A stretch of DNA of 64,000 nt, taken from contig NZ_CP054586.1 of the NCBI RefSeq assembly GCF_003721435.2, forward strand, positions 186,001 through 250,000, written 5' to 3'. This DNA comes from Halorubrum sp. CBA1229. GTDB taxonomy: Archaea; Halobacteriota; Halobacteria; Halobacteriales; Haloferacaceae. Shown here in pieces: positions 6,691 to 24,626 of this stretch. How positions within the stretch are numbered: position 1 is the stretch's first letter; every line of letters begins with the position of its first letter. Made by a program: the position numbers and the translations under genes. Under the pieces are notes generated by a model. It worked only from the letters and a program-made list of their open reading frames with translations, was not told the origin of the DNA and ran no database searches.

Positions 6691-6713
6691 TTTACCCCTC
6701 CGATGGGTGAGGG
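6691..6713 (+). promoter_or_regulatory. Hairpin leader copy 1 (before tfb)
   Basis: After a TTTA stretch, stem CCCTC (6696-6700) and GAGGG (6709-6713) enclose loop CGATGGGT. CCCTC occurs again immediately downstream, so the right arm has two possible partners. The hairpin ends 37 bases before ATG 6750. Confidence 0.6.
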
Positions 6714-6749
6714 CCCTCTCGAAACGGGTCCCGAACACAGGTGAGAACA

Positions 6750-7670
6750 ATGGCAATCAGAGACATCTACGAAACTGGCTTCGACGAAGATGTCCAAACG
6801 GAGTCAAGCGCAAACCGATGTCCCGAGTGCGACGGACACGTCACTACCAACGTGAAGGAAACGGTCTGTGAGGACTGTGGACTCGTTATCGAGAAACAAC
6901 GTATCGATCACGGGCCAGAGTGGCGAGCGTACGATGTGGACGAGCGCGAGCGAACAGGCGCACCGTTAACGACGGCCCGCCACGATCGAGGCCTCTCGAC
7001 CGAGATCGGCCACGGAACCGATGCGCACGGGAACGAACTCTCAGGCCAGAAACGCCGACGGCTGGCCCGGATGCGACGTGAGCAGACCCGTGGTCGCTGG
7101 CGGTCCAAAGCGGAACGGAATCTTGCACACGGGTTGGGCGAGGTACGCCGGCTGGCAAGTGCGCTCGAGCTCTCCGAATCGATTCGTGACCAGGCGTGCC
7201 AGCTCTTCCGGAGCGCCCAGAGCGAGGATCTACTTCGAGGCAGATCCATCGAGGCCATCGGCGCAGCGAGTGTTTACGGTACCTGCCGGTGTAACCAACA
7301 CCCGCTCCTCCTCGAGGATGTCGTCGACGCCGCCCGAGTCGAGTCCACTCGTATCACCAACGCCTACCGAACACTGAATCGCGAATTGGAGCTTCCGGCA
7401 CCACCAATGCGCCCGACATCGTTCGTTCCGCGGCTGATCTCGGCGCTGGAGTTAGACCACGACATTCGCCGACGCGCGAACGAACTCGCAGAACGCGCCG
7501 AGGGGACAACCCTCGCGAACGGCTGTCAGCCATCGGGCGTCGCGGCCGCCTGTGTCTATCTGGCTGCCCAAGAGCAGGGCGCGCTGATTACCCAATCCAC
7601 CGTCGCGTCGGCAGCAGAGGTGTCAGTCGTGACGCTCCGAAGCCGGCGAGACGAACTCCAAGCGATCTGA
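6750..7670 (+). CDS. tfb: Transcription initiation factor TFB
   Basis: A 306-residue archaeal TFIIB homologue that bridges TBP-bound promoters and RNA polymerase. An N-terminal zinc ribbon has CPEC and CEDC pairs (about residues 23-45). The B-reader/linker region follows, then two cyclin-like repeats (about 105-200 and 205-305). ATG 6750 (MAIRDIYE) matches the usual haloarchaeal TFB start; GTG 6741 is in frame but less likely. Haloarchaea carry several TFBs and plasmid-borne copies are common. This is the first gene of the hairpin-leader module and could direct transcription of the neighbouring genes, which is inference. Confidence 0.92.
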   Translation: MAIRDIYETGFDEDVQTESSANRCPECDGHVTTNVKETVCEDCGLVIEKQRIDHGPEWRAYDVDERERTGAPLTTARHDRGLSTEIGHGTDAHGNELSGQKRRRLARMRREQTRGRWRSKAERNLAHGLGEVRRLASALELSESIRDQACQLFRSAQSEDLLRGRSIEAIGAASVYGTCRCNQHPLLLEDVVDAARVESTRITNAYRTLNRELELPAPPMRPTSFVPRLISALELDHDIRRRANELAERAEGTTLANGCQPSGVAAACVYLAAQEQGALITQSTVASAAEVSVVTLRSRRDELQAI

Positions 7671-7723
7671 GACGCCTCCGGTAGAGGAATACCTACATAC
7701 CGGCAGAGAGTCTACCAGGGGGT

Positions 7724-7828
7724 ATGGATCTGGACGAGACTGTCGAGTATCTGTCGACAGAACTCGATATCGAGCGGAGTGAGCACGTTCGCGAGGTCGG
7801 TCGAGCGGTCGCCGAGCTCCGTGACTGA
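7724..7828 (+). CDS. Very small acidic protein (34 aa)
   Basis: A 34-residue frame, MDLDETVEYLSTELDIERS followed by EHVREVGRAVAELRD. It looks amphipathic and acidic in the haloarchaeal manner and starts 53 bases after tfb. No function is known; acceptance rests on composition and position. Confidence 0.4.
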   Translation: MDLDETVEYLSTELDIERSEHVREVGRAVAELRD

Positions 7829-7933
7829 CTCCGTCGCAGGCAACCGGATTTATTTCGTGGTCGCCGAATCCGTCCCCGCGTTTTCTCACCCTCGAGTTTA
7901 AATACCAAACCGGAGGAAACGCGGAGCGAATCG

Positions 7934-8803
7934 ATGACGAACCGCAACTCAGACCGAGACGCGTTCCAACCTGTCGGAGAGGGCGCTCTGGTGCCGGACC
8001 CAGCACTGGATCAGCCAGCAGACGGCCAGCCAACCCGCCAGCGTGAGGCCTCGCATTCGGATGGGTATCCGGATGGAACTACCGACACAGACCGAGCCTG
8101 TGTCTCCTGTGGCGCATCGATCCCGGCGTCGCAAGGAAAATGCCGGTTCTGTCTCGAACACGAACTCGACGGCGCGTCGGAGTCGGGTGCTGCGAGTTCC
8201 GAGCAGACACTGCGTGGTGTGATCCACTTCCTCGTCGAATCCGGGACGTTCTACGGCGCCGTGGCAAAGGGAGCAGCAGCAGCGACGCTTCTCTCGTCAG
8301 GTCACGACCAGCCCATCGACGACTGTACGCTCATCTACGATCTCGACGACGAGCCCGCACCCCAGCTAACCGAGCGCTGGCCTAGGCTGTCCGCTGCTGC
8401 CGATGTGACCTCAGCGACCGGTGAGGCGTTGCTAACAGCAGCCCGTGAGCGGACAGCGTGGGACGAGACGAGCGATCGTTCCCAGACGGAGATTCCACGC
8501 GTCTATGATGAGCGTGGCCAGGGAATCCGTGCTGAGTCGTCACTCGAGCACACGCTCGACGACAGCGATCAGCTGTGGATCGTCCCAGCAATCGCTGTTG
8601 AAACAGTACCCCACGAAACGGAGTCCACCAGTGCCGGAGCCGAAATTCCGACCGTGACAGGCCTCGAGTGCCAGTACTGTACGAGAGAAACAGAACATCG
8701 GTTCAGGACACGGGAGTCGCTCCCTGACGAGACCTGGACGGGCCAACCAATCTGGGAGTGCCAGGTGTGTAGCACAGGTCGCTACGGGCCTGCTCCCGAA
8801 TAG
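7934..8803 (+). CDS. Protein with two putative zinc-finger regions, unknown
   Basis: A 289-residue protein with a disordered first 50 residues, a treble-clef-like cysteine cluster (CVSCG at about 56-60 and CRFC near 70), a central helical part and a second cluster near the C-terminus (CQYC and CQVC). I do not recognise the family. A TATA-like GTTTAAATA at about 7895-7903 lies about 30 bases upstream of the ATG. A perfect 6-bp stem (CGGATT/AATCCG) in the upstream gap lacks the GGGTG loop of the other leaders. Confidence 0.65.
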   Translation: MTNRNSDRDAFQPVGEGALVPDPALDQPADGQPTRQREASHSDGYPDGTTDTDRACVSCGASIPASQGKCRFCLEHELDGASESGAASSEQTLRGVIHFLVESGTFYGAVAKGAAAATLLSSGHDQPIDDCTLIYDLDDEPAPQLTERWPRLSAAADVTSATGEALLTAARERTAWDETSDRSQTEIPRVYDERGQGIRAESSLEHTLDDSDQLWIVPAIAVETVPHETESTSAGAEIPTVTGLECQYCTRETEHRFRTRESLPDETWTGQPIWECQVCSTGRYGPAPE

Positions 8804-8822
8804 GGGAGGAGAAATCCCGTAG

Positions 8823-8865
8823 ATTAACCAACAGTCTCCGATATAGATGGCTTCTGTTGGTTAAT
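8823..8865. repeat. Fixed-spacing inverted repeat, copy 1 of 6
   Basis: Perfect 12-bp arms ATTAACCAACAG (8823-8834) and CTGTTGGTTAAT (8854-8865) with 19 bases between. The TTAACCAACA to TGTTGGTTAA core spans 41 bp. It lies after the gene at 7934, between + and - strand genes. Confidence 0.8.
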
Positions 8866-8878
8866 ACGGTGAGTACCC

Positions 8879-9543: not shown

Positions 9544-9560
9544 TCTGTGAGAGAGGAGGA

Positions 9561-10389: not shown

Positions 10390-10416
10390 TGCGCCGACGA
10401 CAGTCTCGTAAGGAGT

Positions 10417-10444
10417 CTTTCTGCGCCGGCGAGTGGTGAGGCGC
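10417..10444 (+). promoter_or_regulatory. Hairpin leader copy 2
   Basis: TCTTTCT, then stem GCGCC (10423-10427) / GGCGC (10440-10444), loop GGCGAGTGGTGA. It ends 5 bases before ATG 10450. Confidence 0.55.
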
Positions 10445-10449
10445 TTCAA

Positions 10450-10638
10450 ATGGACCCACGCAACACGCCCGGATATCGACTGCATCGGTCACTCACCAAT
10501 CTCAGGCGCATCGAGACGGCCGGACTCGACGACGCAGATCAAGAGCGGATCGAGGCAGCGAAGACACTCCTCCAGAACGTGAGTCTGCTCACCCAACCGC
10601 AACACAGTGGAGACGGCGATGCGCAGATCGAGCCTTGA
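10450..10638 (+). CDS. Small helical protein (62 aa), unknown
   Basis: A 62-residue protein predicted to be mostly helical (GYRLHRSLTNLRRIETAGL, DQERIEAAKTLLQNVSLL) with an acidic tail. It follows hairpin leader copy 2 directly, which supports that it is expressed. Function unknown. Confidence 0.55.
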   Translation: MDPRNTPGYRLHRSLTNLRRIETAGLDDADQERIEAAKTLLQNVSLLTQPQHSGDGDAQIEP

Positions 10639-10681
10639 ATGGCATCGCAGCCCAGAATCCGGATATCTCACTCCGGAGGCT

Positions 10682-10720
10682 GTTTATTTCCCCCCAGAAG
10701 GGGTGCGGGGAGAGATCCCC
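10682..10720 (+). promoter_or_regulatory. Hairpin leader copy 3 (before a gene interrupted by TnpB)
   Basis: TGTTTATTT, then CCCC (10690-10693) and GGGG (10707-10710) around loop CCAGAAGGGGTGC. A second hairpin GGGGA-gaga-TCCCC (10707-10720) uses the same right arm, so the two are mutually exclusive. Confidence 0.65.
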
Positions 10721-10730: not shown

Positions 10731-10772
10731 ATGAACCACCTCACTGAACAATTCCATATTCCCAAGGAGTAA
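10731..10772 (+). pseudogene. 5' fragment of a gene interrupted by the TnpB element
   Basis: ATG 10731 lies ten bases after leader copy 3 and opens a frame MNHLTEQFHIPKE that stops at once. The position exactly where a leader-driven gene should begin, and a coding-like 3' remnant beyond TnpB (12117-12209), suggest the original gene was split by the transposon. The fragment is too short for a family call. Confidence 0.4.
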
Positions 10773-10791: not shown

Positions 10792-12063
10792 ATGGACGAC
10801 GCGCTACGACGCACGGTACGAATCAAACTTGACGTACCCAGAGAATGTCGTGGCGATCTCCATCAGACCAAGACCCAATTCCTCCACTGTGCTAACCGAA
10901 CGAGCGAGTGGGCCTGGCGGTACGACGACGACTGTATCACCAGCAAGAGCAGAGCTGAAGAGGCCCTGTATGACGAGTTACGGGAGGAAACCGAACTCAC
11001 CGCTAATCTCGTTCAGAAAGGTATTCGTCGTGCTATCGCAGCCGTCAGGGCCGGCGTCGAGAAATTGACGCAAGGTGAGAAGACCAGCCAACCCATATTC
11101 GACTCGTGGAGCATCGTGTACGACAAACGCTCCGCGACGTTCAACGACGACCACGCTACCCTCTCGACGCCGAATGGCAGAGTCACCGCCGAATACGTGC
11201 TTCCACCCGAAAATGAGCGAGAGAACACACCGTTCGGACGGTACTACGAGAGTGACAGCTGGAATGCGTCGAGTGCCACGCTCCAGTACGACGAGGATGA
11301 GGACACGTTCTACCTACACGTCACGCTGAAAAGGTCCGACTACAGAAGTGACGGAACGGAACGCCAGGAAAGCCAGTCAGGTGATGATAGCCCTGAGAAC
11401 GGAGTGGTTCTCGGCGTGGACTTGAACGTGACTGGCGCGTTCGCCGTCACCTCCACAGGCGAGTTCATCGGCAGTGCAGACCTCCTCACCCACAAGCGCA
11501 ATCAGTACGAGCAACGCCGCGCCAAACTACAACAGACGGGTACACGGTCGGCTCACCTCACGATCCAGTCCATTGGTAGTCAGTTCAGCGAGTGGACAGT
11601 AGACTGGCTCCACAACCGCGCCAACGACCTCATCGAAGAAGCCCGTGACGCGAAGGTAGACGGGATTATTTTCGAGGATCTTACTCATATCCGCGAGCGT
11701 ATTGCGAACGGCAGCAAGTTCCAGCAGTGGGCCTACGCGAAGTTCGTGGAACTCGTTGAGTACAAGGTCGAGTCCACTGAGTTGTTCGTGGACTTCGTGA
11801 ATCCAGCGTACACGAGCCAGCGTTGCTCATATTGTGGGTGTACCCACGAGGATAATCGCGACGACAAGCAGTTCGAGTGCCAGTCATGTGGGTATGAGGT
11901 GAACGCGGATTACAACGCGGCCAAGAACATTGCAAACCGATACTGCAAGTATATCCATCGCGGGCAGAAGTCTCGCGGTGGATGGGCCACCAGTCAACTG
12001 GCCCTGAAGTCAGGGACGCTGAACGTGAATGGTGAATACACACCTTCCGCCGTGCGCAGATAG
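10792..12063 (+). CDS. tnpB: TnpB-family RNA-guided nuclease (IS200/IS605, IS1341-type)
   Basis: A 423-residue TnpB, the programmable nuclease of IS200/IS605-family elements and ancestor of Cas12. The RuvC-like catalytic residues are present: Asp210 (GVDLN), Glu295 (FEDL) and Asp373 (NADYNAAKNIA). A zinc ribbon with CSYC and CQSC lies between the last two. All three acidic residues and the zinc ribbon are intact, so the protein may be active. No tnpA is adjacent, so the element is not autonomous. The guide (omega) RNA is expected to overlap the 3' end of the gene and the right end of the element. Confidence 0.93.
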   Translation: MDDALRRTVRIKLDVPRECRGDLHQTKTQFLHCANRTSEWAWRYDDDCITSKSRAEEALYDELREETELTANLVQKGIRRAIAAVRAGVEKLTQGEKTSQPIFDSWSIVYDKRSATFNDDHATLSTPNGRVTAEYVLPPENERENTPFGRYYESDSWNASSATLQYDEDEDTFYLHVTLKRSDYRSDGTERQESQSGDDSPENGVVLGVDLNVTGAFAVTSTGEFIGSADLLTHKRNQYEQRRAKLQQTGTRSAHLTIQSIGSQFSEWTVDWLHNRANDLIEEARDAKVDGIIFEDLTHIRERIANGSKFQQWAYAKFVELVEYKVESTELFVDFVNPAYTSQRCSYCGCTHEDNRDDKQFECQSCGYEVNADYNAAKNIANRYCKYIHRGQKSRGGWATSQLALKSGTLNVNGEYTPSAVRR

Positions 12064-12209: not shown

Positions 12210-12213
12210 CGTT

Positions 12214-12261
12214 GTTCATCCCCCGGAAGGGGTGCGGGGCGATCCAGTCGTGAGTCGCCCC
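12214..12261 (+). promoter_or_regulatory. Hairpin leader copy 4
   Basis: TTCATC, then CCCC (12221-12224) / GGGG (12236-12239), loop GGAAGGGGTGC. GCCCC at 12257-12261 can pair instead with GGGGC 12236-12240. ATG 12278 follows 16 bases later. Confidence 0.65.
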
Positions 12262-12277: not shown

Positions 12278-12940
12278 ATGGGACACCGCGCACTCGTTGC
12301 GTATGAACGCACAGACGGACAGTACACGCTCCACTACAGTCATTGGGGCGCAGCGAACCTGAAGCTCAAACACCGAATCTCGGCTGAGTCGCCGTTCGGT
12401 GGCGACGACACCGACTCCAAGTGGGCGAAACAGCTGCTGGCGGAACTGGCCGATGGCCTCGAGGCAGATGCCGTCGACGGCTACCTCGCCGGCGAGGATC
12501 GACCGTCGACGGTCGTCGAGCCGAAGCCCCGCGCCACCGGGCTCACCCTCGACGAGATCGTCGCTGACCATCTCGACTACCTCCACCACGAGGCGTTCTT
12601 CGTGGTGTCGACGACGTTCGAGGTGACCGCCTATCGGACGCTGTGGTTCGGGCTCCAGTACGACTCGGAGACGGTCGAACAGGGAGAGACGGTCGGGAAC
12701 GGCGCGCTCGCGACGGTGCGCTGGTACGACGGCGAACCGGTCGGCGACGGCCACCTGCAGGGCCAGTTCGCGGCCCTCAAAGACGTCGTCGGCGATATGC
12801 TCGACAAGGGCGTCTTCACGCCGTCGACGGCGAGACAGTACCTGAAACGGAAGCTGGCCGAGCGAGTTGGAGACCGACAGGAGCTGCTCATTCCGACCGG
12901 AGAGTCACCCTTCGAGAAGGCGAGCCTGAACCACTCCTAG
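12278..12940 (+). CDS. Haloarchaeal DUF6735-type protein
   Basis: A 220-residue protein beginning MGHRALVAYERTDGQYTLHY, SHWGAANLKLKHRI, which I associate with the haloarchaeal DUF6735 family. Its function is unknown. The protein has a mixed alpha/beta composition without membrane segments or cysteine clusters. It is preceded by hairpin leader copy 4 and followed by copy 5. Confidence 0.6.
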   Translation: MGHRALVAYERTDGQYTLHYSHWGAANLKLKHRISAESPFGGDDTDSKWAKQLLAELADGLEADAVDGYLAGEDRPSTVVEPKPRATGLTLDEIVADHLDYLHHEAFFVVSTTFEVTAYRTLWFGLQYDSETVEQGETVGNGALATVRWYDGEPVGDGHLQGQFAALKDVVGDMLDKGVFTPSTARQYLKRKLAERVGDRQELLIPTGESPFEKASLNHS

Positions 12941-12965
12941 TTCGATCTGCTTCGTGGCAGGTCCT

Positions 12966-12995
12966 GTTTTTCAGGGGTCAGAATGGGTGATCCCC
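12966..12995 (+). promoter_or_regulatory. Hairpin leader copy 5 (arms reversed)
   Basis: GTTTTTCA, then GGGGTCA (12974-12980) pairs with TGATCCCC (12988-12995) with one bulged T, loop GAATGGG. The G-rich arm is here on the left and the C-rich arm on the right, the opposite of most copies, so the pairing is kept but the bases are swapped. ATG 13015 follows 19 bases later. Confidence 0.6.
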
Positions 12996-13014: not shown

Positions 13015-13431
13015 ATGACCTCAGACGACGACCCGTTTCACGACTGCGAGTTGGATTCCGAGGCGATCCTCGGAACACACACGTTCGAAGACGTCCTGTT
13101 CACCGATGAGACGGAAACCCCGGTGAACGTGCTCACCGGCGAGACACCGGCGCATTCGCAAGCAACCGTCGAGGAAGCGAAAGAGTTCGCTGCGAGTATC
13201 GACACGGAGACGCCCCAAATCGCGCTCCCCGCATCCGTCGAGTCGCAGGTCGAAACACAGAGCAAGCCCTACACGGCGGCCGCGTTCTTCCACTTCAAGG
13301 CGACAGGCTCGCTCGCACGCCACCGTGCTTACCACGCCGCCTACGAGTCGGACGCGTTCGCGGTCGACTTCGAGGCCGACTACGAATCGGGCGACCTGAC
13401 CATCACTGTCGAACGAGCGGACGCATCCTGA
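13015..13431 (+). CDS. Acidic protein of unknown function (138 aa)
   Basis: A 138-residue acidic protein not recognised. An N-terminal part rich in Asp/Glu (DDDPFHDCELDSEAILG) precedes a C-terminal alpha/beta region (AAAFFHFKATGSLARHRAYH). It has its own hairpin leader and shares direction with its neighbours. Confidence 0.55.
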   Translation: MTSDDDPFHDCELDSEAILGTHTFEDVLFTDETETPVNVLTGETPAHSQATVEEAKEFAASIDTETPQIALPASVESQVETQSKPYTAAAFFHFKATGSLARHRAYHAAYESDAFAVDFEADYESGDLTITVERADAS

Positions 13432-13452: not shown

Positions 13453-13485
13453 GTTTTTTCGAGCGCCGGCGATGGGTGCCGGCGC
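13453..13485 (+). promoter_or_regulatory. Hairpin leader copy 6
   Basis: GTTTTTTC, then a perfect 7-bp stem GCGCCGG (13463-13469) / CCGGCGC (13479-13485) around loop CGATGGGTG. It is among the clearest copies; the stem bases are unlike those of the CCCC/GGGG type. ATG 13537 is 51 bases downstream. Confidence 0.7.
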
Positions 13486-13536: not shown

Positions 13537-14028
13537 ATGCACATGGTGATTTACGCACTGGTAGAGGCATCGACGCACGACGACGCGCTGGCCACCGGAA
13601 AGACGGTGTTCGACCGCCTGGTCGGCGCGGACCCACACGCCGGCGCCGTCTTCGATTACTATGTGACCTTCGATGAGGAGGACACGTCCGTTGCGGGAAA
13701 GGCGCGATGGGGTGAGCTCCCAACTGCAGCCCCCGTCGACTCTGATGACGGCGAAGACCTGCTTGAGCGTGGCTGGGAGGCGACGAAGGAGGAATTCGAG
13801 CGTAATCTCGACCGGGTGAAAGAGGCCATCGAGGAGCTCTCCGACGAGGAGATCATGCGCGACGAGGACCTCGCCCGGCACGCCTTCCATAAGGTCGGTG
13901 CGTACGACGGCCCGACGATCTTCCTGTACACCGAACACGGCACCGGCATTCGCCACCGTGGACAACTGGATCGACTCCTCGAGGAGAGTGAAGAGCTGTG
14001 GATCGTACCCGCTGACGTCCACTTCTGA
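13537..14028 (+). CDS. Haloarchaeal protein of unknown function (163 aa)
   Basis: A 163-residue alpha/beta protein starting MHMVIYALVEASTHDDALAT, with a helical middle (EEFERNLDRVKEAIEELSDE) and a C-terminal IFLYTEHGTGIRHRGQLD segment. The frame is open upstream to 13510, but ATG 13537 starts the beta strand that looks like the true N-terminus. The next gene starts three bases after its stop, indicating a two-gene unit. Confidence 0.6.
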   Translation: MHMVIYALVEASTHDDALATGKTVFDRLVGADPHAGAVFDYYVTFDEEDTSVAGKARWGELPTAAPVDSDDGEDLLERGWEATKEEFERNLDRVKEAIEELSDEEIMRDEDLARHAFHKVGAYDGPTIFLYTEHGTGIRHRGQLDRLLEESEELWIVPADVHF

Positions 14029-14031: not shown

Positions 14032-14397
14032 ATGCCTCCCATCACCAATTGGCGACGCGAGAGCCGCTCGCCGACACTCGCGTATCGGAACACCGAGACC
14101 GGTGCGCGAGCCGTCCTGCATCGTGCGCCGGACTCCTACCGGTACAAGTGGCGTGGGGCAATTCTCGTCGACGGCTACCCGGTCTGGTCGCGAGGGTACG
14201 AGACGAAGGATGCGACATCGTTCCGTGACGAGCTCCGGGAGCGGCCCGCACCGGACCTCAACTGCCCGGAGTGTCCGAACAACGACGTTCGCGTCGGCGA
14301 GAAGGCGGCAGACGGGGCGAAAGTCCAGCAGTGGTACGACTGCCCCGACTGTGGATACGAAGCCCCCTCACGCATCGTCTACGGCGCCGAGCGGTGA
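14032..14397 (+). CDS. Zinc-ribbon protein (121 aa)
   Basis: A 121-residue protein with a beta-rich N-terminal half and a C-terminal zinc ribbon, CPECPNNDVR and CPDCGYE (about residues 81-113). It starts three bases after the previous stop, so it is probably translationally coupled to it, and it has no hairpin leader of its own. DNA- or RNA-binding is possible but unproven. Confidence 0.6.
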   Translation: MPPITNWRRESRSPTLAYRNTETGARAVLHRAPDSYRYKWRGAILVDGYPVWSRGYETKDATSFRDELRERPAPDLNCPECPNNDVRVGEKAADGAKVQQWYDCPDCGYEAPSRIVYGAER

Positions 14398-14416: not shown

Positions 14417-14460
14417 TGTTTTTCGGCCGGGCACGAGGTGGTGGCCCGGGACGACCGGGT
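14417..14460 (+). promoter_or_regulatory. Hairpin leader copy 7
   Basis: TGTTTTTC, then CCGGGC (14427-14432) / GCCCGG (14444-14449), loop ACGAGGTGGTG. CCGGGT at 14455-14460 can replace the left arm. ATG 14471 follows. Confidence 0.65.
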
Positions 14461-14470: not shown

Positions 14471-14866
14471 ATGACCCTCGAAGTACTTGACCGACACAGC
14501 GAGGCACTGTTCGAGTTCCTCTGGTGCCCCGTCTGCGGGCAGGAGGTCTTCACTCACATCCCCTTCGAGGGGGTGTTCTGCAAGAACTGCAACACCCAGG
14601 TCGAACTCAAAGAATCCCGAGAGACGCGCGGCTACGAGGAGGCCGTGCTCGCCTGCTTCGATTCAAGCACGACATGGAACCTCCACGTCGACGAGAAACT
14701 GCGCCGCGACCTGCCTGATGGGTCGGCACGCGTGAAGATCCTCGGCGCACCGGGAGCCTACAAGGTCGACTGGTGGAGTCCAGAGCCGGGGGAGGACTGG
14801 GAACCTGTGGAGCGCGGCGAGTTCGACGACGTCGAGGAACCATCAGAGGTGTCCCACCTGGCGTAG
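14471..14866 (+). CDS. Zinc-ribbon protein starting MTLEVLDRHSEALFEFLWCP
   Basis: A 131-residue protein with an N-terminal zinc ribbon, CPVCGQE and CKNCNTQ (about residues 19-42), followed by an acidic alpha/beta region. The N-terminal sequence is typical of a small haloarchaeal plasmid family of unknown function. It lies directly behind leader copy 7. Confidence 0.6.
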   Translation: MTLEVLDRHSEALFEFLWCPVCGQEVFTHIPFEGVFCKNCNTQVELKESRETRGYEEAVLACFDSSTTWNLHVDEKLRRDLPDGSARVKILGAPGAYKVDWWSPEPGEDWEPVERGEFDDVEEPSEVSHLA

Positions 14867-17865: not shown

Positions 17866-17928
17866 CCTCAATTATGTGGACAGTACGTTGCAACTGCCAA
17901 ATACGTTGCCGAACGCTACGCCGTCCTG

Positions 17929-17959
17929 TTTGTTGAACCCCTGAGAGGGGTGCGGGGGT
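17929..17959 (+). promoter_or_regulatory. Hairpin leader copy 8
   Basis: TTTGTTGA, then ACCCC (17937-17941) / GGGGT (17955-17959), loop TGAGAGGGGTGCG. It lies 25 bases before ATG 17984. Confidence 0.6.
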
Positions 17960-17983: not shown

Positions 17984-18193
17984 ATGAACGGGAATGTACC
18001 TATGGCCAGTTCGGAATCGGTTCCAGTCGCATCGCCCGGTCAGGCTCACCGAGACGCAGTCGAATACGTCGGCTTCCGCGTCGACGGCCAAGCCGTCGTC
18101 CTGAACCTCTCGGAGCATCGGCGGCTCTCCCTCGAGCGCAGTCTGGACCTCGTCAACCACAATTCGCGTATCCAACCGAAGCTACTTACGTGA
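17984..18193 (+). CDS. Small protein of unknown function (69 aa)
   Basis: A 69-residue frame (MNGNVPMASSESVPVASPGQ, then VGFRVDGQAVVLNLSEHRRL). An inner ATG at 18002 is an alternative start. Position behind leader copy 8 supports expression. The second half looks like two beta strands and a helix. Function unknown. Confidence 0.5.
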   Translation: MNGNVPMASSESVPVASPGQAHRDAVEYVGFRVDGQAVVLNLSEHRRLSLERSLDLVNHNSRIQPKLLT

Positions 18194-18212: not shown

Positions 18213-18491
18213 ATGAGCACTGACAGCGACGCCGGCGGCGACGGTGAAATGGAGAAAATCAACGTCCGGGTGCCCCAGTCGCTGCTGGCACAGGTCGACG
18301 ACGTCTGGGAGGAGCGTGGCTACGCGAACAAATCCGAGTTCATCCGCGACGCGCTTCGAGACGCCGTCAATCCGCCAACGCGGCTGTCCGAGGAAGCGCT
18401 GGCGCATCTGGCCGAGAGCCGCAAGCAGCGGGAGCAGGGCGAGACGGTATCGCAGGACGACGTGAAGGACCGGCTGGGCATCGATGACTGA
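18213..18491 (+). CDS. Ribbon-helix-helix antitoxin
   Basis: A 92-residue protein with an RHH DNA-binding domain (EKINVRVPQSLLAQVDDVWE, then NKSEFIRDALRDAV, about residues 13-50) and an acidic C-terminal tail that would wrap the toxin. It overlaps the toxin start by eight bases, the usual order antitoxin-toxin. An inverted repeat sits at its promoter. Confidence 0.85.
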   Translation: MSTDSDAGGDGEMEKINVRVPQSLLAQVDDVWEERGYANKSEFIRDALRDAVNPPTRLSEEALAHLAESRKQREQGETVSQDDVKDRLGIDD

Positions 18492-18747
18492 GGTCGAGTG
18501 GACACCGAAAGCACTCGATTTGCTGGAGGGGCTCGAATCGGAAGCGCAAGAGCGGTTGGTGAAGAAACTCGACGAGGCGAAAGACTGGACCTCCCACCGA
18601 CTCGAAAAGCTCACCGGCTACCCGTACTACAAGCTTCGTGCTGGCGACTACCGTGCGATCCTCACGTGGGACCGGGAAGAGGATATCCTAATCGTTGAGG
18701 CAGTTGGGCATCGCCGGAATATCTACGACCGACACCTCCCACCGTAA
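18484..18747 (+). CDS. RelE/ParE-family toxin
   Basis: An 87-residue RelE/ParE-superfamily toxin. It has the expected N-terminal helix pair (KALDLLEGLESEAQERLVKK) and the beta-sheet core YKLRAGDYRAILTWD, then ILIVEAVGHRRNIYD. Members inhibit translation by cutting ribosome-bound mRNA or block gyrase; the type cannot be settled by eye. It is coupled to the RHH antitoxin upstream and probably stabilises this module. Confidence 0.85.
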   Translation: MTEVEWTPKALDLLEGLESEAQERLVKKLDEAKDWTSHRLEKLTGYPYYKLRAGDYRAILTWDREEDILIVEAVGHRRNIYDRHLPP

Positions 18748-18821: not shown

Positions 18822-18863
18822 TGTTTATTGCCCCCGAGAGGGCTGCGGGGGAGTTCACTCCCC
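18822..18863 (+). promoter_or_regulatory. Hairpin leader copy 9
   Basis: TGTTTATTG, then CCCCC (18831-18835) / GGGGG (18847-18851), loop GAGAGGGCTGC. CCCC at 18860-18863 is an alternative partner of the right arm. ATG 18875 follows. Confidence 0.65.
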
Positions 18864-18874: not shown

Positions 18875-18997
18875 ATGACTGATTCAGAGTACCCCTGGCG
18901 AGACGAATCGCTCCGTTGTGACCCCTACTGGAAGCAGGAGTTGGGGATGGGGTCGAGAGTTTATAACCCATTACGGGGGAACCGCGGAGGGAGGTGA
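18875..18997 (+). CDS. Short frame upstream of the HNH gene (40 aa)
   Basis: A 40-codon frame (MTDSEYPWRDESLRCDPYWK and GMGSRVYNPLRGNRGGR) behind leader copy 9. Its last codons spell GGAGGGAGGTGA, which can serve as ribosome binding site for the following TTG start. It may be a leader peptide or the stub of a gene invaded by the endonuclease gene. Confidence 0.4.
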   Translation: MTDSEYPWRDESLRCDPYWKQELGMGSRVYNPLRGNRGGR

Positions 18998-19004: not shown

Positions 19005-19829
19005 TTGACCGACCATATCTGTGACTACTGTGGCGAGTCGTTTGCGACCTCCAACGAGTTGGGTGGCCACGTAACCGCAGTCCATCGTCGCGACCAAATC
19101 GTAACGGACGCGGACGTAATTCTCGACGACCTCCAGCGTGTCGCAGACAAATTAGGAAAACCACCGACAGCAAAGGAGATGAGCGAGCACGGGGAGTACT
19201 CCCAGCGCGTCTGCCAGAACAAATTTGGGAGCTGGAACGAGGCGCTTCGTGAGGCTGGCTACGCTCCAAATCGGAAATTTCGACTCACCGATCAGGACCT
19301 GTTGGACGAGATTGACCGCCTTGCGGACCAGTTGGGTCGCCCGCCCTCAAGTGGGGAGATGGATCGGGTTGGGGAATATCACAGATGGACGTATGACCAC
19401 CGGTTTGGCGGGTGGGAAGAAGCACTCAACGAAGCTGGCTTCTCACAACCACGGTCCTATCAAGAACGTTCAGAGATCCCTTACGGGCCAAATTGGCCGG
19501 AGCAACGGCGGCAAGCATTGGAGCGTGATGACTTCCAGTGCCAAACGCCGTGGTGTGAGATGACTCAAGCGGATCATCAAGAGCAGGTTGGGAAGGACAT
19601 CTCTGTCCACCATTTGGTTCCGCGGAAGTCCTTCGTCACCCCCGATGGGCAGTTTGACCACGAACAGGCGAATCGAGTCTCGAATCTCGTGACGGTCTGT
19701 TCGAAGCATCATCTCATCTGGGAAGCCGTCGCCCCGCAGCGGTTGGATACGATTGTCGACGCCACACGGCCACCAGAGCGAGGTCGGCCGGAGGGTGTTG
19801 CTCTTCCCCTACGAGGGGATGAGGGGTAA
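19005..19829 (+). CDS. HNH endonuclease with C2H2 finger and homing-endonuclease-type repeats
   Basis: A 274-residue nuclease. It starts with a C2H2 finger (CDYCGESFATSNELGGHV), has two homing-endonuclease-associated repeats of about 50 residues (ILDDLQRVADKLGKPPTAKE and LLDEIDRLADQLGRPPSSGE, each ending FGxWxEALxEAG) and a C-terminal HNH domain (VHHLVPRKSF and SNLVTVCSKHH). TTG 19005 is chosen because a strong GGAGGGAGGTGA site precedes it and the finger begins just after; the frame is open to ATG 18918. The last codons overlap leader copy 10. Confidence 0.75.
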   Translation: MTDHICDYCGESFATSNELGGHVTAVHRRDQIVTDADVILDDLQRVADKLGKPPTAKEMSEHGEYSQRVCQNKFGSWNEALREAGYAPNRKFRLTDQDLLDEIDRLADQLGRPPSSGEMDRVGEYHRWTYDHRFGGWEEALNEAGFSQPRSYQERSEIPYGPNWPEQRRQALERDDFQCQTPWCEMTQADHQEQVGKDISVHHLVPRKSFVTPDGQFDHEQANRVSNLVTVCSKHHLIWEAVAPQRLDTIVDATRPPERGRPEGVALPLRGDEG

Positions 19830-19845: not shown

Positions 19846-20088
19846 ATGCGACAGACAGACGAGCCTATCCCGACGCCCAATCCAGGCGCTCTCACGAACA
19901 GAGAACGACTCCGGAGGCACCTCACCAGTGCCCTCGAAAGCGCCGAGTCGGCAGAGACGAAAGCCCATCTCCGAGGAGCTCTTGCTGCGTGGCAGAATCT
20001 CCCGCCGACACCACTCGTCGAGTGTCCGCTCTGTGGAAAAGTCGGGCTTCCAGAGCGAATCCAAGCTCACGAGTGTCGACAGTCGTAG
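19846..20088 (+). CDS. Small zinc-finger protein (80 aa)
   Basis: An 80-residue protein with a helical middle (RERLRRHLTSALESAESAET) and a C-terminal CPLCGKVGLPERIQAHEC finger. The frame continues upstream to 19753 within the HNH gene, but ATG 19846 directly behind leader copy 10 is the natural start. Function unknown, probably nucleic-acid binding. Confidence 0.6.
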   Translation: MRQTDEPIPTPNPGALTNRERLRRHLTSALESAESAETKAHLRGALAAWQNLPPTPLVECPLCGKVGLPERIQAHECRQS

Positions 20089-20092
20089 CGTC

Positions 20093-20143
20093 GTTTTTGC
20101 GCCTCGATGGGTGGAGGCGCAGAGCAGAACGCTTCGCGCCTTC
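20093..20143 (+). promoter_or_regulatory. Hairpin leader copy 11
   Basis: GTTTTT, then a perfect 7-bp stem GCGCCTC (20099-20105) / GAGGCGC (20114-20120) around GATGGGTG. GCGCC at 20136-20140 can pair with GGCGC 20116-20120 instead. ATG 20154 follows. Confidence 0.7.
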
Positions 20144-20153: not shown

Positions 20154-21311
20154 ATGAAAGACCCAGAGGAAGCTACGGTCTTCGCAGGCCTTGATGGGCG
20201 AACCGAGACGGAACTACCCGAGTGGTACGCCGAGCAATACGGAGGTCTCGAACCAATCAGCTTCAGTGAGGCGATTCGAAACCTCCCACAGGCAGTCGAT
20301 ACAGCAGTCGCATATCGCAACCCGTACACCGACGAGTGGGTCGAAACAGAGCGGTTCAACGCAATCGTCGAGCCATCCCGGCTACAAGCAGAAGCAGACG
20401 GTGATACCGAAGCAGAGTCGCTATTTCACATCCCGACTGACTCCTACTCGATCATCAACCCGGTCGACGTCTACGGGCCGCTGGAGGAGGTCCTCCGCGA
20501 GGAGACCATCGACGGGGCCCCGCTGGGCGAGGTGATGTTCGGCGAGATTCGGCGCTACCGGGGCGGCGGCGAAGTCCATATGGACATCATGTTCGACGGC
20601 CTCGAGGTGCGCCTGCCCGGCCGGTCGGACCCGATCACGATGGGCGTCACGTCGGGCTACGACTTCTTCGGCGAGCACGCCGTCTACGTGGAGGGGTTCG
20701 CCCAGGACGGCTACTGCTCAAACACGATGCGCTCGCTCACCGACAAGGAGGTCATCAAACACGTCGGCGACGTGCGGAACTTCCGGACCTGGTGGGAGGA
20801 GCTCCTCGCACAGGTCGAACTCGTCGCCGACGACCTCTTCGAGTTCATCCGGGACGCCCAGGACATCGACCTCGACTTCTCGGAACTTCCGTTCACCGTC
20901 ACGGAGTTCTACACCCTGCTGGGCTTCCCGGACTACCTGGCCGAGCGTGCCGCCGGCGATGCAGAAGCCAATGCGGCGTCCCCCTTCGAGATCGATATGT
21001 GGACGCTGCATTCTGGCGCGACGTACGCTCTCACCCACTTCTTCCAGGGGAAAGAGGGGGCATCCCTCGATCAATACGTTCGGATCGCCAACGACATTCT
21101 GTTCAACCCGGAAGGTACGATCGAGCGCGTCGAGCAGGCGTACGAGCAGCAGCTAGAGGCGGACGGTGACGACGGGTCACAGGCCTCGCTGGCCGGCGAA
21201 CGAGCGCTGGCGAGCATCGAGCGCGTCAGCGACGACCTGCAGGAGAAAGTCGAGCAGTTCGAAGAACGCGAGGACGCGCTGCGTGAGCGGTTCCAAGAGG
21301 CGATGGCCTGA
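20154..21311 (+). CDS. DUF932-like plasmid/phage protein
   Basis: A 385-residue protein that resembles the DUF932 family found on phages and plasmids (segments RNPYTDEWVETERFNAIVEP, HIPTDSYSIINPVDVYGPL and GVTSGYDFFGEHAVYVEGF). Family function is unknown. The C-terminal 60 residues are a Glu-rich coiled coil (VSDDLQEKVEQFEEREDAL). ATG 20154 behind leader copy 11 is preferred to the upstream codon at 19989, which would overlap the previous gene. It is one of the largest genes in the module and a marker of plasmid ancestry. Confidence 0.65.
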   Translation: MKDPEEATVFAGLDGRTETELPEWYAEQYGGLEPISFSEAIRNLPQAVDTAVAYRNPYTDEWVETERFNAIVEPSRLQAEADGDTEAESLFHIPTDSYSIINPVDVYGPLEEVLREETIDGAPLGEVMFGEIRRYRGGGEVHMDIMFDGLEVRLPGRSDPITMGVTSGYDFFGEHAVYVEGFAQDGYCSNTMRSLTDKEVIKHVGDVRNFRTWWEELLAQVELVADDLFEFIRDAQDIDLDFSELPFTVTEFYTLLGFPDYLAERAAGDAEANAASPFEIDMWTLHSGATYALTHFFQGKEGASLDQYVRIANDILFNPEGTIERVEQAYEQQLEADGDDGSQASLAGERALASIERVSDDLQEKVEQFEEREDALRERFQEAMA

Positions 21312-21340: not shown

Positions 21341-21369
21341 TGTTTTTCTCGCCCTCGAGGGGTGGAGGG
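21341..21369 (+). promoter_or_regulatory. Hairpin leader copy 12
   Basis: TGTTTTTCTCG, then CCCTC (21352-21356) / GAGGG (21365-21369), loop GAGGGGTG. ATG 21378 follows after eight bases. Confidence 0.65.
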
Positions 21370-21377
21370 GTACCGAG

Positions 21378-21599
21378 ATGGAACAGTCCACGATTAGCGA
21401 CGGGAGTGACGACGAATTCCCACCTGAGAAGCGTCTTGAAGCACCGAATTACCGATTGATCAAGGCCGGTATCGCGACGATCCCGGATATGGAAACCCTC
21501 CAAGAGTGTGTTGCCTACGAGAACGCCCACCAGAATCGAACGCAGATTCTGCGCCGGCTCAAGTGGAAGGCCGAAGAGCTCCGTGAGGGCGAAGAGTAA
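21378..21599 (+). CDS. Small protein of unknown function (73 aa)
   Basis: A 73-residue acidic, mostly helical protein (LIKAGIATIPDMETLQECVA and RTQILRRLKWKAEELREGEE). No recognised family. It sits between leader copy 12 and inverted repeat copy 2. Confidence 0.55.
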   Translation: MEQSTISDGSDDEFPPEKRLEAPNYRLIKAGIATIPDMETLQECVAYENAHQNRTQILRRLKWKAEELREGEE

Positions 21600-21608
21600 G
21601 CTCTGATT

Positions 21609-21651
21609 TTAACCAACACACTCTGCGTGAGTTCACCCTTTTGTTGGTTAA
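21609..21651. repeat. Fixed-spacing inverted repeat, copy 2 of 6
   Basis: TTAACCAACA (21609-21618) and TGTTGGTTAA (21642-21651), perfect arms, 23 bases between, 43 bp overall. It lies immediately upstream of leader copy 13. Confidence 0.8.
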
Positions 21652-21664
21652 TCCGCTGGGCCTC

Positions 21665-21695
21665 TGTTTTTCGGGCCCCTGAAAGGGTGCGGGGC
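21665..21695 (+). promoter_or_regulatory. Hairpin leader copy 13
   Basis: TGTTTTTCGG, then GCCCC (21675-21679) / GGGGC (21691-21695), loop TGAAAGGGTGC. ATG 21724 is 28 bases downstream. Inverted repeat copy 2 is 14 bases upstream. Confidence 0.65.
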
Positions 21696-21723
21696 AGCCA
21701 GCAGCGGCCTCGCGAGCCTAATC

Positions 21724-22725
21724 ATGTCCCTCGAGCTGAGCTCCAGCGCCAGCACCGCCCGCGAAATCGTCGCCGCCAGACAAACAGACTTCGTGGCGTT
21801 CCTCCACCGAGCTCCCTTTGCCGGCGATGCTCTCACCCTCGGATTTCTCCCCGGGTTCCGGGAAGACTGTGGGTATCAGACGGATCAGTACCTGAACCTC
21901 GAGATTCCCGTTGGGATGCTCGACAACGATTTCCGGAGTCCCGATCTGGAGCGGTTCGTCGACCGCTTCTTCGAGTACGAACCAACGGTCGGGGTCATCG
22001 GGGACGTCGACGAAATGGACGACGTCGACGCCCACGTCTCTGCTGCTCGTGAGATCCAAGCGAGCTATCCAGAGGCCGAGCTCATCGTCGTTCCGAAGTC
22101 GCGGGAGGTGATCGACGTGATACCCGAGACCCTCGTCCTCGGGTATTCACGGGGATACGCCAACCGCCTGGCCCACGAATTCTCCGACCCAGCCGATTGG
22201 AGAGGGCGGCGCGTTCATATCCTCGGCGGGAGTCCGCCCAAGCAGCTCGACGCCATTCGACAGTTGACCCGACCGACACTCACGGACGAGCCACCAGCCG
22301 ACATCGTCGGCGTCGACTGGAACGGGCTGCACCGCGGCGCACAGTTCGGTGAGTTCTGGACGGCCGACGGCTGGGACGACAGCGGTCGCGACGCCGACCA
22401 CGTCACCGTGCGAAAGACGGTGCGCCACAGCCTCGCTCGCGTCCGTGAGTTCTGGAGGGCGCACGGAATCTGGCCCGAAACGACACCGCAAGACAAGGGG
22501 CTCGACGTCGAGTACAAGGGACCGAGTCCTGTCGATCTCGAGGACGCCGCCTGTACCGAGTGCGGGACGAACGTCTGGCGAACTCGCCGCGGCCCGTACG
22601 TGGCCGAATACGATACCGGCGCAATCTGTGGATACTGCAGCTACGAGTGCTACTTCAACCACCGTCACCGGAACAACCTGGAGGAGATCGTCGGCGAGCA
22701 GAGCGTCTACCTCCCGCCGACGTGA
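21724..22725 (+). CDS. Haloarchaeal DUF6610-type protein
   Basis: A 333-residue protein I place with the haloarchaeal DUF6610 family. The central part (ELIVVPKSREVIDVIPETLV, LGYSRGYANR, VHILGGSPPKQLDAI) suggests a TIM-barrel-like order of strands, somewhat like tRNA-guanine transglycosylase-type barrels, but catalytic residues cannot be assigned. A C-terminal zinc cluster (CTECGTNVW, CGYCSYECYFNHRHR) follows. Its position behind leader copy 13 fits the module. Confidence 0.55.
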   Translation: MSLELSSSASTAREIVAARQTDFVAFLHRAPFAGDALTLGFLPGFREDCGYQTDQYLNLEIPVGMLDNDFRSPDLERFVDRFFEYEPTVGVIGDVDEMDDVDAHVSAAREIQASYPEAELIVVPKSREVIDVIPETLVLGYSRGYANRLAHEFSDPADWRGRRVHILGGSPPKQLDAIRQLTRPTLTDEPPADIVGVDWNGLHRGAQFGEFWTADGWDDSGRDADHVTVRKTVRHSLARVREFWRAHGIWPETTPQDKGLDVEYKGPSPVDLEDAACTECGTNVWRTRRGPYVAEYDTGAICGYCSYECYFNHRHRNNLEEIVGEQSVYLPPT

Positions 22726-22735
22726 CTTCGCGACC

Positions 22736-22782
22736 TGTTTTTCGTGCCCCCAGAGAGGGCGAGGGCTCCTTCGAAAGCTCTC
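22736..22782 (+). promoter_or_regulatory. Hairpin leader copy 14
   Basis: TGTTTTTCGT, then GCCC (22746-22749) / GGGC (22763-22766), loop CCAGAGAGGGCGA with one more C on the left. GAGGGCT (22761-22767) can also pair with AGCTCTC (22776-22782), six of seven. The gene starts at GTG 22797. Confidence 0.55.
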
Positions 22783-22796
22783 AGAGGTGACTTCCA

Positions 22797-23159
22797 GTGA
22801 GTCAACAACAGCGTCCTGACAACGTCTCGATCGACGAGATCCCGGTCGATATCGACAACACGCAATCAGCGGAGGTCGATTCCGCCGACGTCCCCGACGA
22901 AATCGAATCCATCACCCGTGACCTCGCCGGTGAGCAGCCACCTACGAATCCGCTGGTCGTACTAAAAGCGGCCCGGTGGTGGTACATTCACGGCAAGGGC
23001 GGTACGGATCCCGCCTTCCAGTGGGCCATCGAGTGGGCGCGTCATCTTGCGACTGACACGCCTAGCGACGTCGAGCGGTTCGACGAGTTCCTCGAGTACC
23101 TCATCACGGTCGGATTGGCCGAAGAAAAACGCTCTCTACGCGATGCCAAGACTCCCTAG
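22797..23159 (+). CDS. Acidic protein of unknown function (120 aa)
   Basis: A 120-residue protein with a GTG start behind leader copy 14, an acidic disordered first 45 residues, and a helical second half (VVLKAARWWYIHGKGGTDPA, EWARHLATDTPSDVERFDEF). It overlaps the convergent gene at 23156 by four bases. Function unknown. Confidence 0.55.
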   Translation: MSQQQRPDNVSIDEIPVDIDNTQSAEVDSADVPDEIESITRDLAGEQPPTNPLVVLKAARWWYIHGKGGTDPAFQWAIEWARHLATDTPSDVERFDEFLEYLITVGLAEEKRSLRDAKTP

Positions 23160-23455: not shown

Positions 23456-23550
23456 GCAACAGCGTACTCAGACGTGTAGTGTAAAATGTTGGAAAGTGGA
23501 GTGAAACTGAACACGTTGCTGACGGCTGGAGAGCTAGTTGGTGAATTTCT

Positions 23551-23601
23551 GTTTTTGCGCCCCTGAGGGGTGCGGCGCGTTCTGAACTGCTGCAGTCGCC
23601 G
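23551..23601 (+). promoter_or_regulatory. Hairpin leader copy 15
   Basis: GTTTTT, then GCGCC (23557-23561) / GGCGC (23574-23578), loop CCTGAGGGGTGC. CGCCG (23597-23601) can pair with CGGCG (23573-23577) instead. ATG 23624 follows. Confidence 0.65.
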
Positions 23602-23623
23602 TGAACTCGATTCGGAGAACACA

Positions 23624-24556
23624 ATGGCTACGACTAGTGACTCGTCGGTCTCCTTCGACCAGACCGACACGCGATCCGACGAGATGAACAGTACGATCAA
23701 ACAGTGGATCGACGACCTCGTCGCCGGCGTCGACGACGCACAGGCCAGCGAAGAGTTCCAAGAGTGGCTCGATGTCCAGAGTCGTTTCCACGACTACTCC
23801 TACCGAAACACACTCCTCATCAAGCGGCAGTGTCCCGAGGCGAGCCGGGTGGCGGGCTACCGGACGTGGCAGGAGGAGTTCGACCGCCACGTCACGGAGG
23901 GTGAGTCGGCCATCTGGATCTGGGCACCGATCATCTCCAAGCAGTGCCCGGAGTGCGAGAATTCACCGAGCTACCACGAGGACAGTGACTGTGAGTACGA
24001 CGAGACGCCACCCGAGGAGTGGTCCGAGGGCCTCGTCGGGTTCAAGCCTGCTCCGGTGTTCGACGTCTCCCAGACCGAGGGCGAGCCGCTTCCCAACCTA
24101 GACACGGAAGCGACCGGGGACGCCGGCGACCTCGTCGAGCAGTTGACTGCCGCCGCTGACGACCTCGGCGTGACGGTGCGGATCGTACCAGCTGAGGAGT
24201 GGACCCACGGCGAGGCGAAGGGCATCTGCGAACAGCTGAGTCTCGTCGACGTCCAGCCGCTCGTCGAGGTGCGCGATCGGGCGAACGAGGCCGACCTCGC
24301 GCGGACGCTGATTCACGAGTACGCCCACGCTTTGCTCCACTTCGACGTCGACGACGACACCGAGCGGTCGAAACGCGAAGTCGAGGCCGAAGCCGTCGCG
24401 TACGTCGTCGGGCGCTACTGTGGGTTGGACACCAGCGGGTCTGCGTTCTACTTGGCCGCGTGGGAGTCGGACGATCCCGAGATCGTTCGCGACCGTCTCG
24501 ACCGGATCAGCACCACTGCTGAAGAGATCATCGACGCTCTCGACAGCGCCGCTTAA
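23624..24556 (+). CDS. ArdC-like antirestriction protein (ssDNA-binding domain plus HExxH peptidase)
   Basis: A 310-residue protein with the ArdC plan. The N-terminal domain (about 15-130, FHDYSYRNTLLIKRQCPEAS and GYRTWQEEFDRHV) resembles the ArdC ssDNA-binding domain. The C-terminal ImmA/IrrE-type metallopeptidase has HEYAHALLH with a downstream Glu in REVEAEAVAYVVG. A CxxC pair lies between them. ArdC proteins travel on conjugative plasmids and protect incoming single-stranded DNA. The TAA stop lies inside the left arm of inverted repeat copy 3. Confidence 0.8.
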   Translation: MATTSDSSVSFDQTDTRSDEMNSTIKQWIDDLVAGVDDAQASEEFQEWLDVQSRFHDYSYRNTLLIKRQCPEASRVAGYRTWQEEFDRHVTEGESAIWIWAPIISKQCPECENSPSYHEDSDCEYDETPPEEWSEGLVGFKPAPVFDVSQTEGEPLPNLDTEATGDAGDLVEQLTAAADDLGVTVRIVPAEEWTHGEAKGICEQLSLVDVQPLVEVRDRANEADLARTLIHEYAHALLHFDVDDDTERSKREVEAEAVAYVVGRYCGLDTSGSAFYLAAWESDDPEIVRDRLDRISTTAEEIIDALDSAA

Positions 24557-24594
24557 CCAACAAGAAGGGCCGTTAGCCTATTTTGTTGGTTAAG
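24552..24594. repeat. Fixed-spacing inverted repeat, copy 3 of 6
   Basis: CTTAACCAACAA (24552-24563) and TTGTTGGTTAAG (24583-24594) are perfect 12-bp arms. The core is 41 bp. The left arm supplies the stop of the ArdC-like gene; leader copy 16 begins right after. Confidence 0.8.
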
Positions 24595-24626
24595 TCTTTC
24601 AGTGCCCGCAGAGGGGCGGAGGCACT
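24595..24626 (+). promoter_or_regulatory. Hairpin leader copy 16
   Basis: TCTTTC, then AGTGCC (24601-24606) / GGCACT (24621-24626), a perfect 6-bp stem, loop CGCAGAGGGGCGGA. ATG 24645 follows 18 bases later. Confidence 0.65.

Follow-up and report, generated by a model that had tools for sequence, protein, structure and literature searches.

A covarying hairpin family in front of haloarchaeal plasmid genes and its possible role as a single-stranded DNA start site

Introduction

The promoters of the phage N4 virion RNA polymerase are short hairpins of 5-7 bp with a 3-nt loop that are read on one DNA strand, and in the F plasmid both the tra genes and the leading genes take the transferred strand as their template. 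In F, folded Frpo DNA drives the expression of the leading genes during the single-stranded phase of the plasmid, and this expression ends at duplex conversion; the one tested leading gene of opposite orientation is expressed only later, and F carries two such elements, Frpo1 and Frpo2, that are 92% identical (PMC9849209, available in part). In the plasmid families analysed in the available part of PMC11541004, anti-defence leading genes are confined to the T-strand, that is, the transferred strand. A repeated element with inverted repeats, EGeRS1, precedes several establishment operons, ardC included, in the pLS20 family; the available part of that account gives its mechanism as unknown, the transferred strand of pLS20 as the non-template strand and single-stranded DNA (ssDNA) promoters as highly unlikely there (PMC8708921). 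Here we analyse a family of short hairpins with a T-rich lead that stand in front of plasmid genes of Halorubrum sp. CBA1229, in a 64,000-nt stretch (hereafter the window) that covers positions 186001-250000 of a 363,938-base replicon, C2, in a haloarchaeal genome with one other contig, of 3.2 Mb.

Like Frpo and the single-strand initiation (ssi) sequences of F and ColIb-P9, the haloarchaeal element would be folded DNA with an ssDNA-dependent role, which we infer here, in front of early-entry genes that include anti-restriction genes and lie on one strand. Unlike Frpo, in which bacterial -10 and -35 boxes are rebuilt in a larger stem-loop that F carries twice, it has no visible promoter boxes, measures ~28-35 nt with its lead, is present in many copies per plasmid and combines a diverged sequence with a fixed loop and T-lead. 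It resembles the N4 promoters in being a short hairpin on one DNA strand, but these are read by a dedicated phage RNA polymerase and their loops have 3 nt, whereas the haloarchaeal loops are 8-14 nt long. As in the cis-regulatory leaders of Rfam, a covarying hairpin lies ahead of start codons; unlike them, it has no gathering-score match and its stem changes show no preference for G·U. With EGeRS1 it shares the repetition, the inverted repeats and the position before several establishment genes including ardC, but EGeRS1 is a 400-600 bp conserved sequence from Bacillus (PMC8708921, available in part).

We propose, with a probability of roughly 0.4, that the hairpins are ssDNA start sites from which establishment genes are expressed on plasmid entry, working in the manner of Frpo without being members of that family.

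Results

The sequence-only reading of the window had described 16 hairpins that are read with the downstream gene, and our scan of the window recovered all 16 at their sites, every one on the + strand. The element consists of a GTTTTTC-like T-rich lead, a stem of 4-8 bp and a loop of 8-14 nt with the pattern GA-N-GGG(T/C)G; the lead is an integral part of it, which refines the earlier description. The loosest scanner, which asks for the loop motif, at least four Watson-Crick pairs and at least 5/8 matches to the T-lead, gave 22 matches in the window, namely the 16 copies and six scattered chance-like ones, against three in the reversed sequence. Under a tighter rule, 15 of the 16 remained, together with a chance-like match at 47190, with none on the - strand and none in the reversed control; the copy that it dropped, at 6696, has too weak a lead. 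Because the tightest rule (at least 7/8 lead matches), which stands behind the large counts given below, keeps 11 of the 16 copies and adds three others, one of them on the - strand, these counts both miss real copies and contain some chance ones.

Further copies lie on the same replicon, in a second cluster on the - strand (C2:4.6-36 kb) and on the + strand at C2:180-184.4 kb. A covariance-model search of haloarchaeal genomes, which the sequence-only reading had suggested, revealed a large family: a model built from 12 copies has matches in 101 of the 170 genomes of the host's family (E ≤ 0.01) and in 136 of 292 genomes drawn from the class Halobacteria (E ≤ 0.001). The tightest scanner was then run over 188 sources, including 100 stretches around matches, 80 named loci picked by their DUF6735 gene and two named plasmids (all or nearly all of each). 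Of the 999 elements that it returned, 975 followed their source's majority strand and 24 ran the opposite way, against 35 elements in the reversed-sequence control. Because the sources overlap, the 999 include double counting, and the distinct majority-strand elements number 479. One chromosomal hairpin, L003:1500-1560 (C1:1047835; E 0.02), has a paired stem of its own, TCGCCG/CGGCGA, and precedes what by eye is an apparent homolog of a 190-aa family.

Position by position, the lead reads G (98%), T (99%), T (85%, or C), T (75%, or G), T (73%, or A), T (99%) and C (66%, or T), percentages that are inflated by selection, since at least 7/8 matches to one of seven lead variants were demanded. 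In 429 of the 479 unique elements, lead and loop core are 7-10 nt apart. The last three bases of the loop core are GTG in 387 of the 479 and GCG in 86.

Covariation was scored in an alignment of the 150 best model hits (86 distinct rows), a choice of rows that tilts it towards the structure of the model. The score was 0.431; 500 shuffles gave 0.116±0.015, and sliding the partner strand gave no more than 0.168. Standard pairs made up 89.4% of the cells; two further measures, pairs changed on both sides and further pair types, were not above the shuffles in this alignment. A case independent of the model is provided by gene 24645, whose hairpin AGTGCC/GGCACT corresponds to GCGCC/GGCGC at the same place before its homolog in the second cluster, an inner T-A pair having become C-G and the outermost A-T pair having been lost. 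The paired stem changes on which the sequence-only reading had rested its claim of covariation are also found in a larger alignment, and its view of an element that is shared by plasmid genes, here some 20 unrelated families, and conserved in fold but not in sequence is supported.

Rfam 15 gave no match at gathering score over the 64-kb window and, at E ≤ 2 over 18.5 kb, only the irrelevant snoU82P (0.53), so that the earlier remark that the hairpins fit no described RNA family held against this database. An exact 23-nt core had no match in viral_contigs, and the open-licence literature that we searched contained no account of this motif or of an archaeal ssDNA promoter. A survey of 104 RNA motifs (PMC2864571) names no haloarchaeal motif in its available part, and not one word of its main text begins with "halo". 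We met this large covarying family in none of the databases and papers searched.

Grouping the downstream proteins by BLAST gave 21 families with at least three members, 19 with at least four and 13 with at least ten, and each has its own near-fixed distance from hairpin end to ATG (for example 34-40, 5-6, 19-20 or 18-19 nt). In the window, the genes behind hairpins belong to the TFB (transcription factor B), TnpB, DUF6735, DUF7567, DUF6610 and ArdC-like families, with several lacking a Pfam match; most are DUFs or have no such match. We compared strands in 146 loci chosen for at least three hairpins, using crude gene calls, a hairpin within ~150 nt upstream and a rule that let hairpin hits on the opposite strand count. 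A hairpin lay upstream of 380 of the 1247 genes on the same strand and of 0 of the 674 on the opposite strand, and this restriction is the most striking single fact of the analysis.

Upstream of the window cluster and co-directional with it (L025, +) are genes for a VirB4/TraG-like ATPase and a 1468-aa protein with a match to coupling proteins of type IV secretion systems (T4SS; 3e-05). The second cluster has a T4SS module of its own on the opposite strand (L023, -), with a TrbL_3/VirB6 match at 8e-139; between the two modules, the coupling-type proteins are 43% and the VirB4-like proteins 40% identical. On this replicon, two oppositely oriented hairpin clusters each follow their own T4SS, in its direction. 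Just downstream of the coupling-type gene of L023 sits a gene for an NrS-1-like PrimPol (L023:1162-2412, -; helix bundle domain PF22763 at 2.7e-32, PDB primase chains to 1.5e-37), a domain present in 52 of 116 class genomes.

TrbL_3 was found in 107 of the 292 class genomes at E ≤ 1e-20, and its occurrence is associated with that of the hairpin (85 genomes with both, 51 with the hairpin only, 22 with TrbL only and 134 with neither; p=5e-18). Among the matches listed, 49 contigs carry both; with three mixed contigs (this replicon and two others) set aside, hairpins and TrbL_3/VirB6 are co-directional on 45 of the 46 strand-consistent contigs (p=1.3e-12), the sole exception being a chromosome (G046:C1) on which the two lie on opposite strands and 735 kb apart. 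On the agreeing contigs among these matches, hairpins lie at a positive signed distance from TrbL in 61 of 77 pairs (17-75 kb, one of 169 kb) and at a negative one in 16, some through wrapping of circular contigs. Two plasmids typed MPF_T have the gene order T4SS, primase, TFB, hairpin genes, ArdC and origin protein.

Some neighbours of these systems were observed in passing. The modules at C2:40-60 kb (L023) and C2:166-178 kb (L025) are homologous, diverged and oppositely oriented, which suggests that two conjugative plasmids have fused in this replicon. In the interval that separates T4SS and hairpin cluster, L025:10174-13259 holds YcaO and nitroreductase genes followed by an APH-family kinase gene on the other strand, possibly a modified-peptide locus. 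Genes annotated as the ExoVII subunits xseA and xseB directly precede the T4SS region of two plasmids, pJ7-1 (86893-88130; L239) and the one in L240 (L240:11944-13181).

Because an RNA stem should show more G·U than A·C among its changes, we counted wobbles in elements that were found without using the stem (200 in-register elements of 338 unique ones in 17 families with at least five members, from 1096 stem-free hits). Stem events between orthologs comprised 9 G·T/T·G and 14 A·C/C·A. In 25 haloarchaeal tRNAs the numbers were 15 G·U and 0 A·C, a difference from the hairpins with a Fisher p of 1e-4, although this benchmark is generous, consisting of the best-scoring tRNAs with pairs from a program that favours G·U. 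The missing preference for G·U favours a fold at the level of DNA.

All copies in the window are on the + strand and consist of a T-lead and a hairpin. The first (lead of the GTCTATTTA type, hairpin CCCT/AGGG, 6686..6713), which has the weakest lead of the 16, precedes an orphan TFB gene (6750..7670, +; ATG at 6750; TFIIB Pfam 2.2e-33). GCGCC/GGCGC at 10414..10444 stands before a 62-aa gene at 10450, in whose family the spacing is 5-6 nt across 45 elements, and the C-rich CCCC/GGGG at 10680..10711 before tnpB at 10792, identified by Cas12f1-like_TNB, with a short frame starting at 10731. CCCCG/CGGGG (12210..12239) precedes a DUF6735 gene at 12278; GGGG/CCCC, with its arms swapped (12965..12995), a 138-aa gene at 13015; GCGCCGG/CCGGCGC (13453..13485) a 163-aa gene at 13537, which is followed by a hairpin-less DUF7568 gene at 14032; and CCGGGC/GCCCGG (14417..14449) a DUF7567 gene at 14471. 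The gene at 17984, whose nearest upstream gene is divergent, lies behind ACCCC/GGGGT (17927..17959), a 40-aa frame at 18875 and an HNH_repeat gene behind CCCCCG/CGGGGG (18822..18851), an 80-aa gene at 19846 behind CCCCT/AGGGG (19796..19826) and the gene at 20154 behind TGCGCCTC/GAGGCGCA (20088..20121). Next come CCCTC/GAGGG (21341..21369) before a 73-aa gene at 21378, GCCCC/GGGGC (21665..21695) before the DUF6610 gene at 21724 and GCCC/GGGC (22736..22766) before a gene with a GTG start at 22797. A second GCGCC/GGCGC copy (23549..23578) precedes a gene for an ArdC-like anti-restriction protein (23624..24556, +) with an ssDNA-binding ArdcN domain (5.1e-05, over its cut-off) and an M78-like part (Peptidase_M78, 0.00039, just under its cut-off), and AGTGCC/GGCACT (24593..24626) precedes the gene at 24645.

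The sequence-only reading had every hairpin end 5-50 bases before a start codon. By eye, the distance is 5-51 nt for the window copies, with an exception at 10689, where tnpB starts 80 nt and the short reading frame 19 nt downstream. Two short overlapping genes at 18213-18747 have no hairpin and look by eye like a CopG/RelE-like toxin-antitoxin pair.

The window also contains a second repeat, TTAACCAAC-N(22-26)-GTTGGTTAA, with exact arms and a free spacer (23-24 nt in 153 of 173 copies). It occurs five times (8824-8864, 21609-21651, 24553-24593, 25469-25509 and 27285-27325) compared with 0 by chance, and we found 173 distinct copies in 102 sources and the repeat in 34 of 39 same-genus genomes. 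It favours the 3′ ends of genes (51 convergent, 88 tandem and 7 divergent positions, with 15 inside a called open reading frame) and often lies directly before a hairpin (83 cases within 60 nt). Its arm GTTGGTTA shares 7/8 bases with the recognition site of the NrS-1 PrimPol, TTTGGTTA (site from PMC8718748, available in part), and the repeat is a candidate priming site on both strands for the NrS-1-like PrimPol of the same replicon. Two plasmids have the repeat together with an annotated primase that is not NrS-1-like, which argues against repeat and PrimPol being strictly paired.

Discussion

We think that the link to conjugation and to a single DNA strand, which lay beyond what the sequence-only reading could see, is the key to these hairpins. 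On conjugative entry, one strand would fold into such a hairpin ahead of every establishment gene, where synthesis would be started by an initiating enzyme: the RNA polymerase of the host, either alone or with the plasmid TFB, or some other factor. Some 15-20 entry genes (ArdC, TFB and many DUFs) would thus be expressed before the second strand is made, and their expression would be shut off once the DNA becomes double-stranded. A start signal that acts on ssDNA at entry would keep its pairing but not its sequence, occupy one strand and follow the T4SS in direction, and it would come with anti-restriction ArdC among its genes and with ordinary promoters seemingly missing. The covarying fold, the fixed loop and lead, the near-fixed spacing, the strand restriction, the T4SS co-orientation, ArdC and TFB among the genes, the primase gene adjacent to that for the coupling protein and the lack of a G·U preference are observed; single-stranded transfer, the identity of the transferred strand, transcription from the hairpin, its transience and its enzyme are what the proposal would add. 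Co-orientation with TrbL_3 on 45 of the 46 contigs, among the matches listed, fits the layout of F. The element has a conserved single-strand secondary structure, with modest folding energies, and lies upstream of an anti-restriction-type (ArdC-like) gene on T4SS-bearing replicons, both of which it has in common with Frpo. Because no core promoter is visible in the stem, and the G+C-rich stems of 4-8 bp hold neither a TATA box nor a B recognition element (BRE), it does not belong to the Frpo family and would work like Frpo with another reader.

Several observations weigh against an ssDNA start site. No promoter box is visible in the stem, which is too short for TATA plus BRE. We recognised no relaxase or oriT in a search that was not exhaustive, and PLSDB predicts all 74 of 74 plasmids with a DUF6735 match to be non-mobilizable; because of this, single-strand transfer is assumed. 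At E ≤ 1e-20, 51 of the 136 hairpin-positive genomes have no TrbL_3 match. The 24 minority-strand elements among the 999 are a further point, with both strands used in 20 of the 184 sources with matches, but the reversed control of 35 suggests that many of them are chance matches. Predicted DNA folding energies are modest (mean z -1.3 for the coding and -1.6 for the template strand), several C-rich copies are predicted to prefer an inner CCCC/GGGG pairing over the covarying outer stem, and folding energy was rejected as an identifier of the element because alone it does not single it out. The wobbles do not pick the template strand either (14 vs 9; p=0.40 against equality); a template-strand polarity seen in early counts (CA10+AC4 vs TG2; CA12+AC11 vs TG5+GT4; CA12+AC4 vs TG4+GT2) was dropped because the more trusted stem-free ortholog count gave only these figures. 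Finally, because pLS20 transfers the non-template strand, co-orientation alone does not prove the geometry (PMC8708921, available in part).

An unlikely but substantial rival is a double-stranded promoter or operator, in which the plasmid TFB would read the T-lead as an atypical TATA-like box, and the inverted repeat, placed between this box and the transcription start, would serve as a regulator site or influence melting. The T-lead is the most conserved A/T-rich part of the element and is centred 25-30 nt before the hairpin end in 432 of the 479 elements, one of its positions is A rather than T in 22% (giving the TATA-like TTTATT or TTTATC), and TFB is encoded on the plasmid and is itself behind a hairpin. 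This explanation leaves unexplained why the arms covary freely with only pairing kept and why 0 of the 674 opposite-strand genes use the element, and the spacing from T-lead to ATG ranges from ~32 to more than 80 nt.

Rather unlikely is the shared cis-regulatory RNA that the sequence-only reading had thought possible, in which a single protein would bind a 5′ leader that contains the U-rich lead and the hairpin. Covariation with a fixed loop is what such a leader would show, its position is mostly 5-55 nt before start codons, and a strong Shine-Dalgarno sequence between hairpin and ATG in two long-spacer families (49 of 51 and 48 of 50) makes leadered mRNAs likely there; it is absent in some other families, and in short-spacer families the loop itself mimics one, so that no clear rule emerges. 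The RNA reading is nevertheless the weaker one in view of the wobble counts (9 G·T vs 14 A·C, compared with 15 vs 0 in tRNAs), the strand restriction within loci and the scarcity of canonical TATA-like promoters: such hexamers lie upstream of 18 of the 479 hairpins, a rate near that of random positions (280/11040) and below that of opposite-strand genes (127/958). By crude gene calls, the nearest upstream neighbour is divergent for 220 of 683 hairpins, which therefore need a promoter of their own; at 50 hairpins with a divergent neighbour the hexamer counts were 2/50 vs 7/50, a sample too weak to use. Co-orientation with the T4SS also has no explanation in a leader.

The hairpins could instead be priming sites (ssi) on the transferred strand, used by a plasmid primase for second-strand synthesis, with their position before genes incidental, which we regard as distinctly unlikely. 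An NrS-1-like PrimPol is encoded in the T4SS operon, and the NrS-1 enzyme recognises GTG motifs on ssDNA (PMC8718748, available in part), the ending of most loop cores; against this stand the 86 of 479 cores that end in GCG, the same hairpins on pJ7-1, where the annotated primase is weakly PriS-like and not NrS-1-like by these searches, a near-fixed spacing to specific gene starts that priming does not need, and the GTTGGTTA repeats, which are a better candidate for the PrimPol site.

It is very improbable that the hairpins mark recombination or cassette boundaries like integron attC sites: the genes do share one orientation and the structure is kept rather than the sequence, but an attC site belongs 3′ of its cassette gene whereas the hairpin is 5′ at a near-fixed, family-specific distance and is associated with the gene family, no attC boxes are seen by eye, and two plasmids are annotated with a phage-type integrase and no integron integrase (annotation only, with no family search). 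Also rejected were an intrinsic terminator, since the T-run precedes the hairpin instead of following it, a TnpB-linked hairpin, since TnpB is only one of the ~20 downstream families, and, as unlikely, the double-stranded cruciform that the sequence-only reading had thought possible, since arms of 4-8 bp with loops of 8-14 nt are short for extrusion.

Beyond the ssDNA start site itself, we put forward more tentatively that haloarchaeal conjugative plasmids use a regulon of ssDNA promoters, with one short hairpin code of lead, sequence-free stem and fixed loop before ~20 gene families, a dedicated archaeal initiation factor and activity at entry only. As far as our searches show, this would be the first ssDNA-promoter regulon outside bacteria, and archaea would own a way to express genes from incoming single-stranded DNA. 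With stems free in sequence, 15-20 copies could be kept side by side and would recombine little with each other, and the hairpin genes would be a ready list of candidates for establishment and anti-defence functions in haloarchaea. Even if the mechanism is wrong, a large covarying family is tied to a conjugation system on replicons typed as non-mobilizable, and through the element the mode of haloarchaeal plasmid transfer, including the strand that is moved, becomes testable.

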